From Methanogenium sp. MK-MG (GTDB lineage Archaea; Halobacteriota; Methanomicrobia; Methanomicrobiales; Methanomicrobiaceae): a stretch of DNA of 63,416 nt. The notes beneath the pieces are model-generated. The model was given only the letters and a program-made list of their open reading frames with translations. It was not told the origin of the DNA and made no database searches. Positions 8,976 to 18,247 of this stretch are shown here, piece by piece (position 1 is the stretch's first letter; each line of letters starts with the position of its first letter). Both the position numbers and the translations under genes were made by a program. Location of the stretch: the NCBI RefSeq assembly GCF_009914725.1, contig NZ_JAAAWJ010000003.1:1-63416 (forward strand), given 5' to 3'.

Positions 8976-9093
8976 TATGAGCATTTATGAATTGCCGGAT
9001 AAACAATATGAGATTCTTTCTCTTGCCGAGCATGCTTTTCATGGAAAAGATTATCAAACTGCATTTGATCTCAATTTAAGATTGGGGGATATG
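8868..9093 (+). repeat. 105-bp direct duplication at the NTPase/TPR gene junction
   Basis: Segment 8868-8972 (end of the NTPase gene) and 8989-9093 (start of the TPR gene) are imperfect copies. Shared features are the CAATATGAG, TCTCTTGCC and CATTTGATCTCAATT strings at matching positions. The encoded peptides are alike (DEQYENRSLAKHA versus DKQYEILSLAEHA). The duplication brackets the stop codon that separates the two genes. Confidence 0.8.
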
Positions 9094-10296
9094 TATTATG
9101 ACCACTATAATTACTCAACCGCTCTTGAATTGATGAATCGGGCGAAAATATCGGCAGAATCATTGAATGACAGAAGAAGTATGGCAGTAGCATATCAACG
9201 CACTGGCAAGATACTCCAAGAACTATACGATTACCCAAAATCGCTTAAAAATTACAAACAGAGCCTGGCGATCAGTCAGGAATTAGGTAATCGGGGGGAT
9301 GAGGCTCTAATTCTTCACCAGATGGGAATGGTATACCATAAAGCAAACCAGCCTGATGGAGCACTGGATTACTATAAGCAGAGCTTGGCGATCGAACAGG
9401 AACTTGGCAACCGATCCGGTGCATCTTCTACCCTCCACCAGATTGGGATGATCTACCAGGACACAAATCGGTATGCTGAGGCACTGGATTACTATAAGCA
9501 GAGCCTGAAGATCAAACGGGAACTTGGTAACCGTGCTGGTGAGGCCTCAACCCTCCACCAGATCGGGATGGTCTACCAAGACAAAAACCGATCTGATGAT
9601 GCACTGGATTACTATAATCAGAGCTTGGCGATCAGCCAGGAACTCGGTAACCGTGCTGGTGAGGCCTCAACCCTCCACCAGATCGGGAAGGTCTACCAAG
9701 ACAAAAACCGATCTGATGATGCACTGGATTACTATAATCAGAGTCTGGCGATCAAACGGGAACTTGGTAACCGTGCTGGTGAGGCCTTAACCCTCCACCA
9801 GATCGGGATGGTCTACCAAGACAAAAACCGATCTGATGATGCACTGGATTACTATAATCAGAGTCTGGCGATCAAACGGGAACTTGGTAACCGTGCTGGT
9901 GAGGCCTTAACCCTCCACCAGATCGGGATGGTCTACCAAGACAAAAACCGATCTGATGATGCACTGGATTACTATAATCAGAGTCTGGCGATCAAACGGG
10001 AACTTGGTAACCGTGCCGGTGAAGTTTTTACCTTAGATCAAATGGGCAGATTATTCGGGGACATGTCCAAATTTGATGATTGTGTCTATCATTTTTGCAA
10101 TGCTCTCTCCATTGCCGTACCCAATCAGATGCCAGTGTCCGATCAAATTCTCTTCAATCTAAAAATAGTTCATGATCAAATGGGTGAAGAACCGTTTACC
10201 GCGGCAGTGAATGAGGCATTCCAGGGAGACGAGCTGTCAGTGTTTGTTATTCAGGAAGTAAAAAGAAGGTCAGAAGAGGGGAGAAATTCTATTTGA
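8977..10296 (+). CDS. Tetratricopeptide-repeat protein, partner of the NTPase
   Basis: The protein has 439 residues, nearly all TPR units of 40 residues. The repeat carries the signature LHQIGMVYQDKNRSDDALDY. The long 40-residue unit with L-G-N-R-A-G resembles the kinesin-light-chain/LGN type of TPR. Four central units are almost identical at DNA level. The C-terminal 80 residues are a helical cap (FDDCVYHFCNALSI). It starts two bases after the NTPase stop and is surely co-transcribed. It presumably forms the sensor or partner-binding part of the NTPase module. No catalytic motif is present. Confidence 0.85.
   Translation: MSIYELPDKQYEILSLAEHAFHGKDYQTAFDLNLRLGDMYYDHYNYSTALELMNRAKISAESLNDRRSMAVAYQRTGKILQELYDYPKSLKNYKQSLAISQELGNRGDEALILHQMGMVYHKANQPDGALDYYKQSLAIEQELGNRSGASSTLHQIGMIYQDTNRYAEALDYYKQSLKIKRELGNRAGEASTLHQIGMVYQDKNRSDDALDYYNQSLAISQELGNRAGEASTLHQIGKVYQDKNRSDDALDYYNQSLAIKRELGNRAGEALTLHQIGMVYQDKNRSDDALDYYNQSLAIKRELGNRAGEALTLHQIGMVYQDKNRSDDALDYYNQSLAIKRELGNRAGEVFTLDQMGRLFGDMSKFDDCVYHFCNALSIAVPNQMPVSDQILFNLKIVHDQMGEEPFTAAVNEAFQGDELSVFVIQEVKRRSEEGRNSI
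9301..10020 (+). repeat. Tandem 120-bp TPR-coding repeats
   Basis: Six 120-bp units run head to tail inside the TPR gene. The last two (9781-9900 and 9901-10020) differ by one base, and the four from 9541 onward are nearly identical. The first two are more diverged. The length is an exact multiple of three, so copy number can change without frameshift. Confidence 0.95.
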
Positions 10297-10656: not shown

Positions 10657-11817
10657 TCAGAAATCATATTCTATTTCTTCCATGCTTTCATCAGACCATT
10701 CTATGAGCTTTTGCCGGAGCTCTTCTTTTGAAGGGAGATAGAGCTGGTAGCGGGAGGCATACACATTTGTATTTTCAGGAAGTGTGAGCTGTACGAGGGC
10801 GTCGTTGTTTGTTTTACAGAGGATGATACCGATCGTCAGGTTTTCATCGTCCAGTTTAACATGCCGGTCAAAATAATTGACGTACATCTGCATCTGTCCA
10901 AGGTTTTCATGGGTAAGCTTTCCTATTTTAAGGTCAATCAGGACGTAACAACGCAGTAATCTGTTGTAGAAGACTAAATCCACATAATAGTTGTCGGAGT
11001 CAAATGTAAATCTCTTCTGACGTGCTTCAAATAGAAATCCCTTGCCGAGTTCGAGAAGAAAGTGTTCCAATTTGTCAATTATTGCAGATTCAAGATCGTT
11101 TTCCGAATATTTTTCCTTCTCATCAAGTCCAAGGAATTCAAGAACAAGCGGATTTTTTATCATATCCTCCGGTTTTGTGATTCTCTGCCCGTTGTATGAC
11201 AAGTCCCGGACTCCTTCTTTATCCCTGCTCAGTGCAAGTCTTTCATATAACCCGGAGTTAGACTGACGCTTTAGTTCTGCAAGCGACCAACTGTTTTCTG
11301 TTGATTCAATCTCGTAAAATTGGCGTTCATCCCTGGATTTTATTCCCATCAGGAATACATAATGAGACCAGCTTAGGGTAAAATGCGACGATTGGGCAGA
11401 CACTGTCTGCGCAATTGCAGAGGAACAGTATGTTTCATTGCCCAATTTCCCAGACGCTGTCTGGGATATTGCAGGAGCACAAATCCGATACTCAATAAAA
11501 AACCTGCGCATATACTCAAGATTGCTTCTTGAAAATCCCCGTCCAAACTCTCTTGTCAGGCTTTCAGATAAATCTTTGAGCGTCTGTTTTCCGTATTCTG
11601 CCCTGTTATCTCCCAACTGCTCGTTTTCAACGATAAGCTTTCCAATCTCAAAGTTTGTGAGCACCTGTAATGTATTGATATTTTGTGCGGCATTTTTTCT
11701 GGCCGTTAGTATGAGATTTCGGACTTCACTTAAAAGTGGCAGGATTTCATCGTTTTTATTTTGTATAATTTTCCGGTTCTTGTCTTCAGCCATGTAAAAC
11801 ACCATCTGCACCATCAT
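10657..11817 (-). CDS. DUF1016 (YhcG-type) PD-(D/E)XK nuclease-domain protein
   Basis: This 386-residue protein has the two-part DUF1016 layout. The N-terminal helical domain runs through GKQTLKDLSESLTREFGRGFS and SWSHYVFLM. The C-terminal nuclease has FLFEARQKRFTFDSDNYYVD and VLIDLKIGKLTHENLGQM, giving the E...D...D-x-K core. Between them lies a variable segment with two related peptides, AISQTASG and AIAQTVSA. The family occurs in restriction-modification and defence neighbourhoods. The start is uncertain: ATGs lie at 11817, 11814 and 11793 (MAEDKNRK). It is a single gene at the right edge of the accessory region. Confidence 0.85.
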   Translation of the reverse strand: MMVQMVFYMAEDKNRKIIQNKNDEILPLLSEVRNLILTARKNAAQNINTLQVLTNFEIGKLIVENEQLGDNRAEYGKQTLKDLSESLTREFGRGFSRSNLEYMRRFFIEYRICAPAISQTASGKLGNETYCSSAIAQTVSAQSSHFTLSWSHYVFLMGIKSRDERQFYEIESTENSWSLAELKRQSNSGLYERLALSRDKEGVRDLSYNGQRITKPEDMIKNPLVLEFLGLDEKEKYSENDLESAIIDKLEHFLLELGKGFLFEARQKRFTFDSDNYYVDLVFYNRLLRCYVLIDLKIGKLTHENLGQMQMYVNYFDRHVKLDDENLTIGIILCKTNNDALVQLTLPENTNVYASRYQLYLPSKEELRQKLIEWSDESMEEIEYDF

Positions 11818-11974: not shown

Positions 11975-12937
11975 CTACCTCCCCTCCCCCGCAATCTTCG
12001 AAAACGGTATAATCCCCGCACCAATATCCGTCGTCACATTGCATCCCTGCTCAATGGCATTCGCCACCAGATTCAGACCGCTGAAGAAGACAATCGAGAG
12101 ACGGTAGGGATCGGGCCTCAGATTAAACGGGCTCGTACCCATACCGACCGGACGGACAAACCCGCAGCCTGCCATATCATCAATAATACCCTCGACCTTT
12201 TCTCTTGCCTGAACAGTCACCTCCCTGACATTCACAAGCGCCACCCCGCTCCCGGTATGAACCAGACTATCAACCGAGGTCAGACCTGCATTAATAAAAA
12301 GAGACAGAGGATCTATTGTTGTGCCCCGGTAGCGGATCAGGTCATCAAAACAGACCGGCTGATTATCAGTAATACGGAACCTCCCCCCATATACAATATC
12401 AACACCAATCCCGTTATTCTGGAGCACGCCGTCCATCGTTATAGAACAGGCGGATATAAACCCGACCGTATCCGGCGGGAGACGGGGATCGTTATCGGTT
12501 ATAGAGTAGCCCCTGAAGAAACTGTAACCACGGTTTATCACCTCATCATATGCCCGCGTAACATGTTCAATCTCATCATACGGTACATAGGTCAGGTTGT
12601 AGGCAATATCCCCGGTCAGCGTCTTCGGGTCAAACGATACATTAAATGAAAGCTGTTCAAGCCGGGATATCACATACCCCATACGATCATCAACCAGGGC
12701 ATCCCCTGCCTCAGAATGACCGTCTGTCGTAAGAACCCGGCCTTTATTACCCACTTTGCGGGTAAATCCCTGCTCATCAAGGTACTGAAGATAATACTGT
12801 ACTGCCCGGTCAGACATCGAAAATCCGCGTTCAGCCATCAGCTCACTGAGCCGCTTCGCGCCGAGAGGCCCTTGCTGCTGTTCTGAAAGAATACGCAATA
12901 TCTCAACAGATCTTCTCTCAGAACGCTCAAAGGTCAT
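11975..12937 (-). CDS. nrpR: Nitrogen-responsive repressor NrpR, single-NRD form
   Basis: The 320-residue protein has an N-terminal winged helix (residues 1-70, RSVEILRILSEQQQG) and one NRD/DUF128 domain (about 85-315). NrpR binds operators near nitrogen genes and releases them when 2-oxoglutarate rises. Methanococcus NrpR has two NRD domains, whereas this has one, like NrpRI of Methanosarcina. It is adjacent to the glutamate-synthase-like gene, glnK-amtB and glnA, the expected targets. No clear GGAA-N6-TTCC site is seen before its own start. Confidence 0.9.
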   Translation of the reverse strand: MTFERSERRSVEILRILSEQQQGPLGAKRLSELMAERGFSMSDRAVQYYLQYLDEQGFTRKVGNKGRVLTTDGHSEAGDALVDDRMGYVISRLEQLSFNVSFDPKTLTGDIAYNLTYVPYDEIEHVTRAYDEVINRGYSFFRGYSITDNDPRLPPDTVGFISACSITMDGVLQNNGIGVDIVYGGRFRITDNQPVCFDDLIRYRGTTIDPLSLFINAGLTSVDSLVHTGSGVALVNVREVTVQAREKVEGIIDDMAGCGFVRPVGMGTSPFNLRPDPYRLSIVFFSGLNLVANAIEQGCNVTTDIGAGIIPFSKIAGEGR

Positions 12938-13067
12938 TTCACAACCACCCTATACCAATTGCGGCATTGCAGAAATGAGAACAATTCATCAGTATGATAA
13001 TTGAGGATTCGTTCATATCTATGTTTTGAAAAAAAGAGCATGCAACCGTTAGGTTTCACAGTGAAGA

Positions 13068-13110
13068 CAGGCAGGAAGTCCACGAATTCAGTCGTGGGCA
13101 GTTGACAATA
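13068..13110 (+). mobile_element. IS200/IS605-like right-end hairpin remnant
   Basis: The sequence AGGCAGGAAGTC is followed by CCACGA (13080-13085), a six-base loop, TCGTGG (13092-13097) and GCAGTTGAC. This matches the layout of IS200/IS605-family right ends, where GAAGCC, a hairpin around a TTTAG-like loop, and GTTGAC follow the tnpB stop. No tnpA or tnpB coding sequence remains nearby. A second, inverted copy lies at 15067-15106. Confidence 0.6.
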
Positions 13111-13149
13111 TAATCTTTTGCGACAACATCATTCCTATAATCTATATGG

Positions 13150-13180
13150 AAATATTTATACGCGTAGGAAAGAAGATTCT
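13150..13180 (+). promoter_or_regulatory. Promoter and candidate NrpR site of the glutamate-synthase-like gene
   Basis: An AATATTTATA box lies at 13151-13160. Just downstream GGAA (13167-13170), six bases and TTCT (13177-13180) match the NrpR operator GGAA-N6-TTCC with one mismatch. A repressor bound here would cover the start of transcription. Predicted transcription would begin near 13180, leaving a leader of about 155 bases. Confidence 0.45.
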
Positions 13181-13210
13181 TGTAAGCATTCATAGAAATA
13201 TGGATGATAA

Positions 13211-13316
13211 TGGCATGTCTGGTGACATGCCACATATCAGGAGTATAACTCCTGTAATTTCAAAAATGATACGTATTGCAGGATATTTGTGAATGAAACT
13301 AAGATTCCTGCAATAC
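13211..13316 (+). promoter_or_regulatory. Three-hairpin structured 5' leader
   Basis: Three perfect inverted repeats follow one another between the promoter and the start codon. They are TGGCATGT/ACATGCCA (13211-13218 with 13225-13232, loop 6), CAGGAGT/ACTCCTG (13238-13244 with 13248-13254, loop 3) and GTATTGCAGGA/TCCTGCAATAC (13273-13283 with 13306-13316, loop 22). A ribosome-binding site TGGAGGT follows 10 bases later, before the ATG at 13338. CTCC of the second stem could alternatively pair with GGAG of that site. It matches no leader class I can name. Regulatory function is inferred from structure and position. Confidence 0.6.
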
Positions 13317-13337
13317 CAAAATATCTGGAGGTAAATT

Positions 13338-14930
13338 ATGGCAAACCTTAAAACACCCAATTCGGATGAGGCTCTTCACACATTCACACGTTCAAAAAAT
13401 GTCGTACCTATGTCGGGTATGTGTTCACGATGTATTGACGGATGCAAGGGAAATTGTGATATCTGGCTTTCATCTTTCAGAGGCCGTGAAGTACTCTACC
13501 CCGGACCATTCGGGGAAGTAACAGCAGGGGCGGATAAAGATTACCCGATTGACTACTCACATCTCAATATCCATGGATACGCAGTCGGTGCACGCGGACT
13601 TCCCAAAGGCGTAAAAGCCAACTCCGATACAGCAGTCTTCGAAGATGTAGACACTGAAGTGGAGTATGGATGGGACATTAAGGTCCCGATGAAAGTTCCT
13701 ATCTTTACCGGAGCACTCGGATCAACCGATATTGCACGCAAAAACTGGGAACACTTCGCAATCGGTGCGGCAATTGCAGGGATTACCCTTGTCTGTGGTG
13801 AAAATGTCTGCGGTGTCGACCCCGATCTTAAGCTTGACCAAAACGGAAAGGTGATCAGTTCACCTGAGATGGACAGAAGAATTGAAACATATAAGAAATT
13901 CCATGAGGGATATGGAGAACTTCTTGTCCAGCTCAACGTTGAGGACACGCGACTTGGTACAGCAGAATATGTATCCAGCAAACACAACCTCGAAACAATC
14001 GAACTGAAGTGGGGACAGGGTGCGAAATGTATCGGCGGTGAAATAAAAGTCGGTTCCCTTTCACGTGCAACCGAACTGAAAGAGCGCGGATACATCGTCC
14101 TTCCTGATCCCACACGCCACGACGTTCAGAAGGCCTTTGAAGACGGTGCAATTAAGGAATTCGAACGCCATTCCCGCCTCGGATTTGTTTCAAAAGAAGG
14201 ATTCCTGGAAGAAGTGGATCGCCTCCGCGACATTGGTTTCAAGCGCGTGACACTCAAGACCGGCGCCTACTCAATGAAGGAACTTGCGATGGCAATACGC
14301 TATTCAGCCGAAGCAAAAATTGACCTGCTTACCATAGACGGCGCACCGGGCGGAACAGGAATGAGCCCATGGCCAATGATGAACGAATGGGGTATCCCGA
14401 CATTCTATCTCCAGTCTCTTGCATACGACTTTGCAACCCAGCTTGAACAGAAGGGCTACCGCGTGCCGGACCTTGCAATCGCAGGCGGATTCGCAGATGA
14501 AGCAAATGCGTTCAAGGCGCTCTGCATGGGTGCACCGTACTTTAAGGCAGTCTGCATGGGTCGTGCACTCATGATCCCGGGCATGGTCGGAAAGAACATC
14601 GCCAAATGGCTTGAGAATGACGAACTGCCGAAGAGCGTTTCAAAATACGGTTCTTCAGTTGAAGAGATCTTTGTATCCTACCAGGAGCTCAAAGAAAAGT
14701 TCGATGGAAGAATCGACGAAATTCCTCTTGGCGCAGTCGGTATTTACACCTACGCACAGCGTTTCAGAACAGGAATGCAGCAGGTTATGGCAGGAAGTCG
14801 CAACTTCAGTTTCAGTTCAGTTTCAAGAAACGACCTGATGGCACTTACACCTGAAGCAGCAGAAGTATCGGGCATCCCCTACCTCATGGAATCATACAGG
14901 GACGAAGCGCTCGATATCCTTCTCGAATAA
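13338..14930 (+). CDS. Glutamate-synthase-like FMN-binding protein
   Basis: The 530-residue protein carries the FMN/2-iminoglutarate-binding domain of GltB. An N-terminal Cys cluster is visible (C29, C32, C36, C40, in MCSRCIDGCKGNC). A second Cys pair lies in VCGENVCGVD. The flavin-site motif TIDGAPGGTGMSPWP is followed by GGFADEANAFKAL and CMGRALM. It lacks the N-terminal glutamine amidotransferase domain of bacterial GltB, which in archaea is often a separate gene and is not seen here. Expected role: glutamate formation from 2-oxoglutarate, or a related FMN reaction. A GGAGGT site precedes the ATG. The gene is flanked by inverted insertion-sequence ends and preceded by a structured leader. 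Confidence 0.8.
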   Translation: MANLKTPNSDEALHTFTRSKNVVPMSGMCSRCIDGCKGNCDIWLSSFRGREVLYPGPFGEVTAGADKDYPIDYSHLNIHGYAVGARGLPKGVKANSDTAVFEDVDTEVEYGWDIKVPMKVPIFTGALGSTDIARKNWEHFAIGAAIAGITLVCGENVCGVDPDLKLDQNGKVISSPEMDRRIETYKKFHEGYGELLVQLNVEDTRLGTAEYVSSKHNLETIELKWGQGAKCIGGEIKVGSLSRATELKERGYIVLPDPTRHDVQKAFEDGAIKEFERHSRLGFVSKEGFLEEVDRLRDIGFKRVTLKTGAYSMKELAMAIRYSAEAKIDLLTIDGAPGGTGMSPWPMMNEWGIPTFYLQSLAYDFATQLEQKGYRVPDLAIAGGFADEANAFKALCMGAPYFKAVCMGRALMIPGMVGKNIAKWLENDELPKSVSKYGSSVEEIFVSYQELKEKFDGRIDEIPLGAVGIYTYAQRFRTGMQQVMAGSRNFSFSSVSRNDLMALTPEAAEVSGIPYLMESYRDEALDILLE

Positions 14931-15066: not shown

Positions 15067-15106
15067 GTCAACTATTCACGACTAAAGTCATGGGCTTCCT
15101 GCCTGC
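15067..15106 (-). mobile_element. Second IS200/IS605-like right-end hairpin, inverted
   Basis: Read on the minus strand the segment is GCAGGCAGGAAGCC, CATGAC, TTTA, GTCGTG, then AATAGTTGAC. It contains the classical GAAGCC plus ACTTTAGT loop core of IS605-type ends. With 13068-13110 it forms an inverted pair bracketing the glutamate-synthase-like gene. No transposase remains. Confidence 0.6.
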
Positions 15107-18177: not shown

Positions 18178-18211
18178 TAGATAGCACTCAACCTACCGGA
18201 TATCGTCCATA

Positions 18212-18233
18212 TACTATATAGGTCAATATAGTA
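18212..18233. promoter_or_regulatory. Perfect dyad upstream of glnA
   Basis: TACTATAT (18212-18219), six bases (AGGTCA) and ATATAGTA (18226-18233) form a perfect 8-6-8 inverted repeat about 40 bases upstream of the glnA TATA box. The six-base spacer equals that of NrpR operators, but the half-sites differ from GGAA/TTCC. It is a candidate operator or an upstream TATA region. Confidence 0.4.
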
Positions 18234-18247
18234 ACGATCAAAAAAGA

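Follow-up and report, generated by a model that had tools for sequence, protein, structure and literature searches.

Glutamine riboswitches, namely the glnA and Downstream-peptide RNAs of Rfam, are known from bacteria, and few native cis-regulatory RNAs are known from archaea. Nitrogen control in methanogens has so far been described mainly as transcriptional repression by NrpR, and in Methanococcus maripaludis the operators through which NrpR acts on nitrogen genes have the form GGAAN6TTCC (PMC2723118). In Methanolobus psychrophilus, 51% of the 5' UTRs are longer than 50 nt and 24% are longer than 150 nt, so that the view of an earlier note on the DNA studied here, that long structured leaders are unusual in archaea, is not supported; according to the same paper, long 5' UTRs help to stabilize mRNAs in methanogens adapted to cold (PMC5378194). 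We have analyzed the leader of a glutamate-synthase-like gene in a 63,416-nt stretch of the genome of Methanogenium sp. MK-MG, hereafter the window (Table 1). No Rfam family matched this leader, in agreement with its proposed status as an uncatalogued RNA: at the gathering threshold of Rfam 15 the window gave only a tRNA elsewhere, the leader region (13050-13400) gave no match up to E 2, and six related loci gave one irrelevant weak match up to E 1. No description of the element was found in the open-access literature either; subscription papers fell mostly outside the scope of that search, and an earlier description there is possible. On the comparative evidence presented below, the window leader is a genuine, evolutionarily conserved folded RNA leader that has not been catalogued, and its position and context appear to tie it to a hairpin that recurs across the order Methanomicrobiales in the leaders of genes for glutamate synthesis.

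Table 1. Features of the leader and its surroundings (positions in the window)
Feature	Position	Strand	Remarks
TATA box AATATTTATA	13151..13160	+	From sequence; position relative to the GGAA element kept in most leaders of the order
GGAAAGAAGATTCT (GGAA-N6-TTCT)	13167..13180	+	Operator-like; local form of the order-wide GGAAGG element; near-unique per genome
Predicted transcription start (+/-3 nt)	13182	+	Placed ~26 nt from the TATA centre; conserved TTRTAA-like sequence in orthologues
Hairpin H1, CATTCATA-GAAA-TATGGATG	13187..13206	+	8 bp, one G.U pair, GNRA loop
Hairpin H2, TGGCATGTC/GACATGCCA	13211-13219 with 13224-13232	+	Perfect 9 bp, 4-nt loop
Hairpin H3, CAGGAGT/ACTCCTG	13238-13244 with 13248-13254	+	Perfect 7 bp, 3-nt loop
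Hairpin H4, GTATTGCAGGA/TCCTGCAATAC	13273-13283 with 13306-13316	+	Perfect 11 bp, 22-nt loop
Ribosome-binding site GGAGGT	13327..13332	+	From sequence; ATG at 13338
Glutamate-synthase-like protein, 530 aa	13338..14930	+	Partial match to PF01645 (Glu_synthase); cysteine cluster at the N terminus
nrpR	11975..12937	-	NrpR regulatory domain and winged helix; divergent neighbour of the glutamate-synthase-like gene
CTATA-N5-TATAG-like inverted repeat	13131-13151		Just upstream of the TATA box
ACTATAT...ATATAGT repeat	18206-18235		Upstream of glnA
Flanking inverted repeats, ~39 bp, imperfect	13067-13106 and 15067-15105		Either side of the glutamate-synthase-like gene
YhcG/DUF1016-type PDDEXK nuclease gene	10657-11817		PF06250, PF17761; adjoins nrpR
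TPR protein	8977-10296		Several nearly identical tandem repeats

The TATA box, the GGAGGT site right after the stems and the ATG all lie where the earlier note had placed them, and the position of the TATA box would imply that transcription begins 5' of the coding region, at the predicted start. The three successive stems of 8, 7 and 11 bp that it had described are all present, as perfect stems of 9, 7 and 11 bp; the leader nevertheless has four hairpins, since H1 had been overlooked. Of the four, H1 lies nearest the predicted 5' end, at a distance of about 5 nt, and H4 ends 10 nt ahead of the ribosome site. The folding strength of this region is unusual: its minimum free energy is -52.1 kcal/mol, against a mean of -31.1 for shuffled sequences (z -5.6), and none of 200 dinucleotide shuffles was as stable. 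Furthermore, among the 155-nt regions upstream of 55 genes in the window this leader was the most extreme, with a z of -6.0 where the mean was -0.8 (sd 1.5).

The same four-hairpin leader occurs in the window's genus and in one sister genus. A covariance model (R1) based on three leaders from the window's genus and on a structure derived from the window leader was scanned over 28 genomes of the family and gave one site in each of six genomes, always before the glutamate-synthase-like gene. Three of these leaders belong to the second genus and were absent from the model (E 4.2e-12, 7.8e-7 and 9.5e-7), and the three remaining matches all had E 0.4 or weaker. A dispersed element was also considered and rejected, as both a DNA search and R1 gave only one site per genome. 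In the alignment of the six leaders, 87% of the cells were paired and seven pairs were altered on both sides, with a covariation score that none of 500 shuffles reached; sliding the partner lowered pairing to 28-45%. This alignment was fitted to the model and leans towards its structure (A4 and A9 are model-fitted and lean to their own structures, and A3, from the genus, and A7 are sequence-only), and in the sequence-only genus alignment both-sided change was found in three pairs. RNAalifold on a MAFFT alignment (A1) had returned a partly different consensus because the stems were misaligned by one or two columns, and A1 was replaced by A3 together with the model-based alignment. Over the six orthologues H1 was the best preserved hairpin (97.9% of cells paired, three pairs altered on both sides). 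The figures for H3 were 85.7% and two pairs; in H4, with 83.3% of cells paired, no pair was altered on both sides, and what is kept is mainly the sequence, with a strongly conserved GCAGG/CCUGC. Compensatory changes in related leaders had been named beforehand as the support to look for; in the window's lineage and in the order the stems are conserved, and both-sided changes exceed those of shuffled controls. Two further genera of the family (L012/L013 and L010/L011) have long leaders with different hairpins, which also show both-sided change, for example GUGUCGC/GCGACAC versus AUGCCGC/GCGGCAC.

Beyond this lineage, several families of Methanomicrobiales share a module formed by the TATA box, the GGAAGG element and a hairpin 38-46 nt downstream of the element. 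In leaders that are long enough, the hairpin usually starts at that distance from GGAA and has the 7-bp consensus GUUUGRG-loop-CYCARAC, with a loop of 3 to more than 12 nt. In 29 Methanoregulaceae-type leaders, aligned by sequence only, 98% of the cells were paired and 12 cells were altered on both sides (no shuffle of 500 reached the score); the 20 one-sided changes all led to G.U, and four cells were unpaired. That one-sided changes go almost all to G.U, together with the variable loop length, points to an RNA rather than a DNA operator. A model of the whole module (R2), which included two Methanocalculus-type glutamate dehydrogenase sites, was scanned over 199 genomes of the order. In its 53 matches 96.3% of the cells were paired, with four pairs and 22 cells altered on both sides (0/500 shuffles), and it recovered leaders of family f1 that were not in the model (G019 and G024; E 1.6e-4 and 6.5e-4). 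Matches above E 1e-3 (L202, L204, L212 and G032:C46) were chance-like, and a scan of 345 genomes of the phylum confined the module to the order, bar three near-chance matches (G473, G210 and G420; E 4e-4 to 2e-3). The GUUUG 5' arm is nearly invariant and the 3' arm drifts within the limits of G.U pairing, a pattern which suggests that the arm sequence itself may be recognized, either by a protein or by another RNA, or may take part in an alternative pairing; the last of these was looked for and none was found. H2 of the window starts 44 nt after GGAA, within the positional range of the order-wide hairpin, with a diverged sequence, so the two could be equivalent. This match, by position alone, is only suggestive because four hairpins in 150 nt make a coincidence not unlikely and because R2 gave no match in the window's own genus at E<0.05.

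The module is also shared with glutamate dehydrogenase genes. A search with the promoter-block pattern, predating any hairpin model, revealed a second site in each of two Methanocalculus-type genomes, located 70-90 nt ahead of a glutamate dehydrogenase gene and followed by the same hairpin. R2 added further glutamate dehydrogenase leaders in this genus (L205, L207, L209 and L211); among them are near-duplicates of L161 (L207 and L209) and of L163 (L211). In addition, it found two unforeseen Methanoregulaceae-type leaders (L197 and L213) before a second glutamate dehydrogenase, only 34% identical, where the stem was altered as GGCU/AGCC versus GGUU/AACC. Enzyme identity was checked with Pfam and neighbours with tblastn, and all matches of the order scan at E<1e-3 whose downstream gene was examined precede the glutamate-synthase-like gene or a glutamate dehydrogenase. 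Within the family to which the window belongs, the glutamate dehydrogenase genes carried no module, and the window-type leader was not seen before them either. In one genome (G148; L203 and L216) the module lies before a gene resembling F420-dependent NADP reductase, and glutamate dehydrogenase follows about 2.7 kb further on.

The GGAAAGAAGATTCT element lies between the TATA box and the predicted transcription start. Across the order, promoters of the same gene carry a strongly conserved GGAAGG, followed by a CTTATAA-like sequence at the expected start. GGAA-N6-TTCT occurs in the window and in most Methanoculleus, and the exact GGAA-N6-TTCC in one Methanoculleus genome (L054). In Methanoregulaceae-type genomes the block is GGAAGGCAAGCGCTTATAA, whose exact form occurs once per genome and does not fit the NrpR consensus. 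GGAA-N6-TTCT resembles that consensus without matching it, and other families deviate from it further; transcriptional control through the block is likely but inferred. The distance from the promoter block to the ATG ranges from about 15 to 200 nt across the order; Methanoculleus has the element, a leader of only ~25 nt and no leader hairpin, and thus manages without the latter. Among Methanosarcinales, two Methanothrix-type loci (L063 and L078) carry a TATA box followed by a GGAAGA block and, further downstream, a strong hairpin, all ahead of the homologous gene. The inverted repeat just upstream of the window's TATA box is conserved in several orthologues of the glutamate-synthase-like gene and resembles the repeat before glnA, and these CTATA-type repeats could be a second operator.

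The 530-aa glutamate-synthase-like gene is widespread across Methanomicrobiales and is distinct from the three-part glutamate synthase, which in relative G002 is a separate gene set; a sequence-based search found no solved structure for its product. Homologues of glnK, amtB and glnA, read from the window translations, lie near it. Its adjacency to nrpR, to which the earlier note drew attention, holds in the window, where the two are divergent neighbours, but is not conserved, as in G002 the two are separated by over 5 kb. The repeats flanking the gene (GCAGGAAG.CCA.GA.TT.AGTCGTG..AGTTGAC) resemble IS200/IS605-type ends and have 22 matches in the window's genome. Gene order around the gene differs between the window and G002, and these repeats may therefore have mediated a rearrangement. 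Other features of the region are the nuclease gene next to nrpR, whose family commonly occurs close to mobile or defence genes, and the TPR protein, whose near-identical repeats suggest a recent expansion.

Several readings of the leader were weighed against each other. A switch in which CTCC of the second stem pairs with the ribosome site, as had been suggested, did not hold up: the CTCC does exist, but as a single copy, and it lies in the H3 stem of only two of the six orthologues (the window and L003), and partition-function folding gave no consistent partner of the ribosome site among the six species. When the coding sequence was included in the folding, the predicted partner of the window's ribosome site was the start of the coding region. 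No conserved masking or alternative pairing of the ribosome site that could serve as an expression platform was found in these species, and a riboswitch-type pocket of invariant unpaired nucleotides or a junction was absent, as the loops vary in length and sequence and only the 7-bp stem is common. A riboswitch that binds glutamine, glutamate, 2-oxoglutarate or ammonium would suit a place before glutamate-forming enzymes, a conserved 5'-arm sequence and the lack of an Rfam match; with neither a conserved loop or junction nor a conserved alternative pairing, we consider it improbable. Ligand sensing is possible but unsupported, and an anatomy of simple hairpins with variable loops and no junction gives it no specific favour. 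GUGAAUGA...CUGA in L002 hinted that the H4 loop might contain a kink-turn or a box C/D-like motif, an idea that was rejected because the motif is not conserved. It is very improbable that a short upstream reading frame, or a small RNA derived from the leader, accounts for the conservation: the leaders contain readable frames of 8-54 codons, with co-linearity between the window and L003 over 25 codons, but L002 and the other genus have an interrupted frame, and the differences between the window and L003 (6, 6 and 7 by codon position, counted by eye) show no third-position excess.

The dyads might, alternatively, function as DNA rather than RNA, as operators that lie downstream of the start and bind dimeric transcription factors. 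H2 and H3 are perfect short palindromes, the promoter element upstream is clearly DNA-like and archaeal repressors often bind near the start site; nevertheless, an arm spacer that varies from 3 to more than 12 nt and the excess of G.U (20) over unpaired cells (4) among one-sided changes, which only same-strand RNA tolerates, make this quite improbable. A passive role is a strong rival, particularly for H1. The hairpins would then merely guard the 5' end of the mRNA from nucleases or prevent misfolding of the leader, and regulation would act only at the promoter element. Consistent with this, the best-conserved stem sits some 5 nt from the predicted start, the hairpins are simple with freely varying loops, Methanoculleus does without the leader hairpin, and long 5' UTRs aid mRNA stability in cold-adapted methanogens (PMC5378194). 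However, protection requires neither a near-invariant GUUUG arm nor recurrence before unrelated glutamate-forming genes, and we hold it to be rather unlikely.

Taken from comparative sequence data, our main reading is a cis-acting structured 5' leader joined to a promoter module, by which glutamate-forming enzymes would be co-controlled also after transcription; we put its probability at roughly 0.48. A repressor that responds to nitrogen, whether NrpR or a different one, would bind at the GGAA promoter element; the leader hairpin could be bound by an RNA-binding factor or could alter mRNA decay or ribosome loading, so that these enzymes would come under common control post-transcriptionally as well. 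The glutamate-making genes that carry the hairpin are probably controlled at the RNA level too. A bolder proposal, which we regard as doubtful, is an order-wide native archaeal RNA element that would sense nitrogen or glutamate status, directly or via a dedicated RNA-binding protein reading the GUUUG arm, and would co-control the glutamate-synthase-like protein and glutamate dehydrogenases together with the promoter operator. A near-fixed hairpin with compensatory changes in several families of one order offers a candidate that can be tested for a role in controlling nitrogen assimilation through RNA, and it can be located with a covariance model. The protein that binds the order-wide promoter element could also be identified.

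With bacterial glutamine riboswitches the proposed system would share the control of nitrogen assimilation by an RNA leader structure, but it lacks an Rfam match at a useful score and a common junction architecture. Autoregulation of L7Ae through a kink-turn in its own leader is likewise an archaeal case of an mRNA leader element with a defined RNA structure (PMC6298567), whereas inspection of the six leaders revealed no conserved 3-nt bulge with tandem sheared G.A pairs. The likeness to the NrpR operators (PMC2723118) lies in nitrogen-assimilation genes, a GGAA half-site near the TATA box and an NrpR encoded in the genome; on the other hand, the second half-site is imperfect here (TTCT in the window, absent in Methanoregulaceae), and such operators leave the leader hairpin unexplained. 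Finally, the long 5' UTRs of M. psychrophilus mtaA and mtaC are also leaders of 100-250 nt that are thought to affect mRNA stability or translation (PMC5378194), but those are gene-specific, whereas here one hairpin recurs across an order before several glutamate genes.
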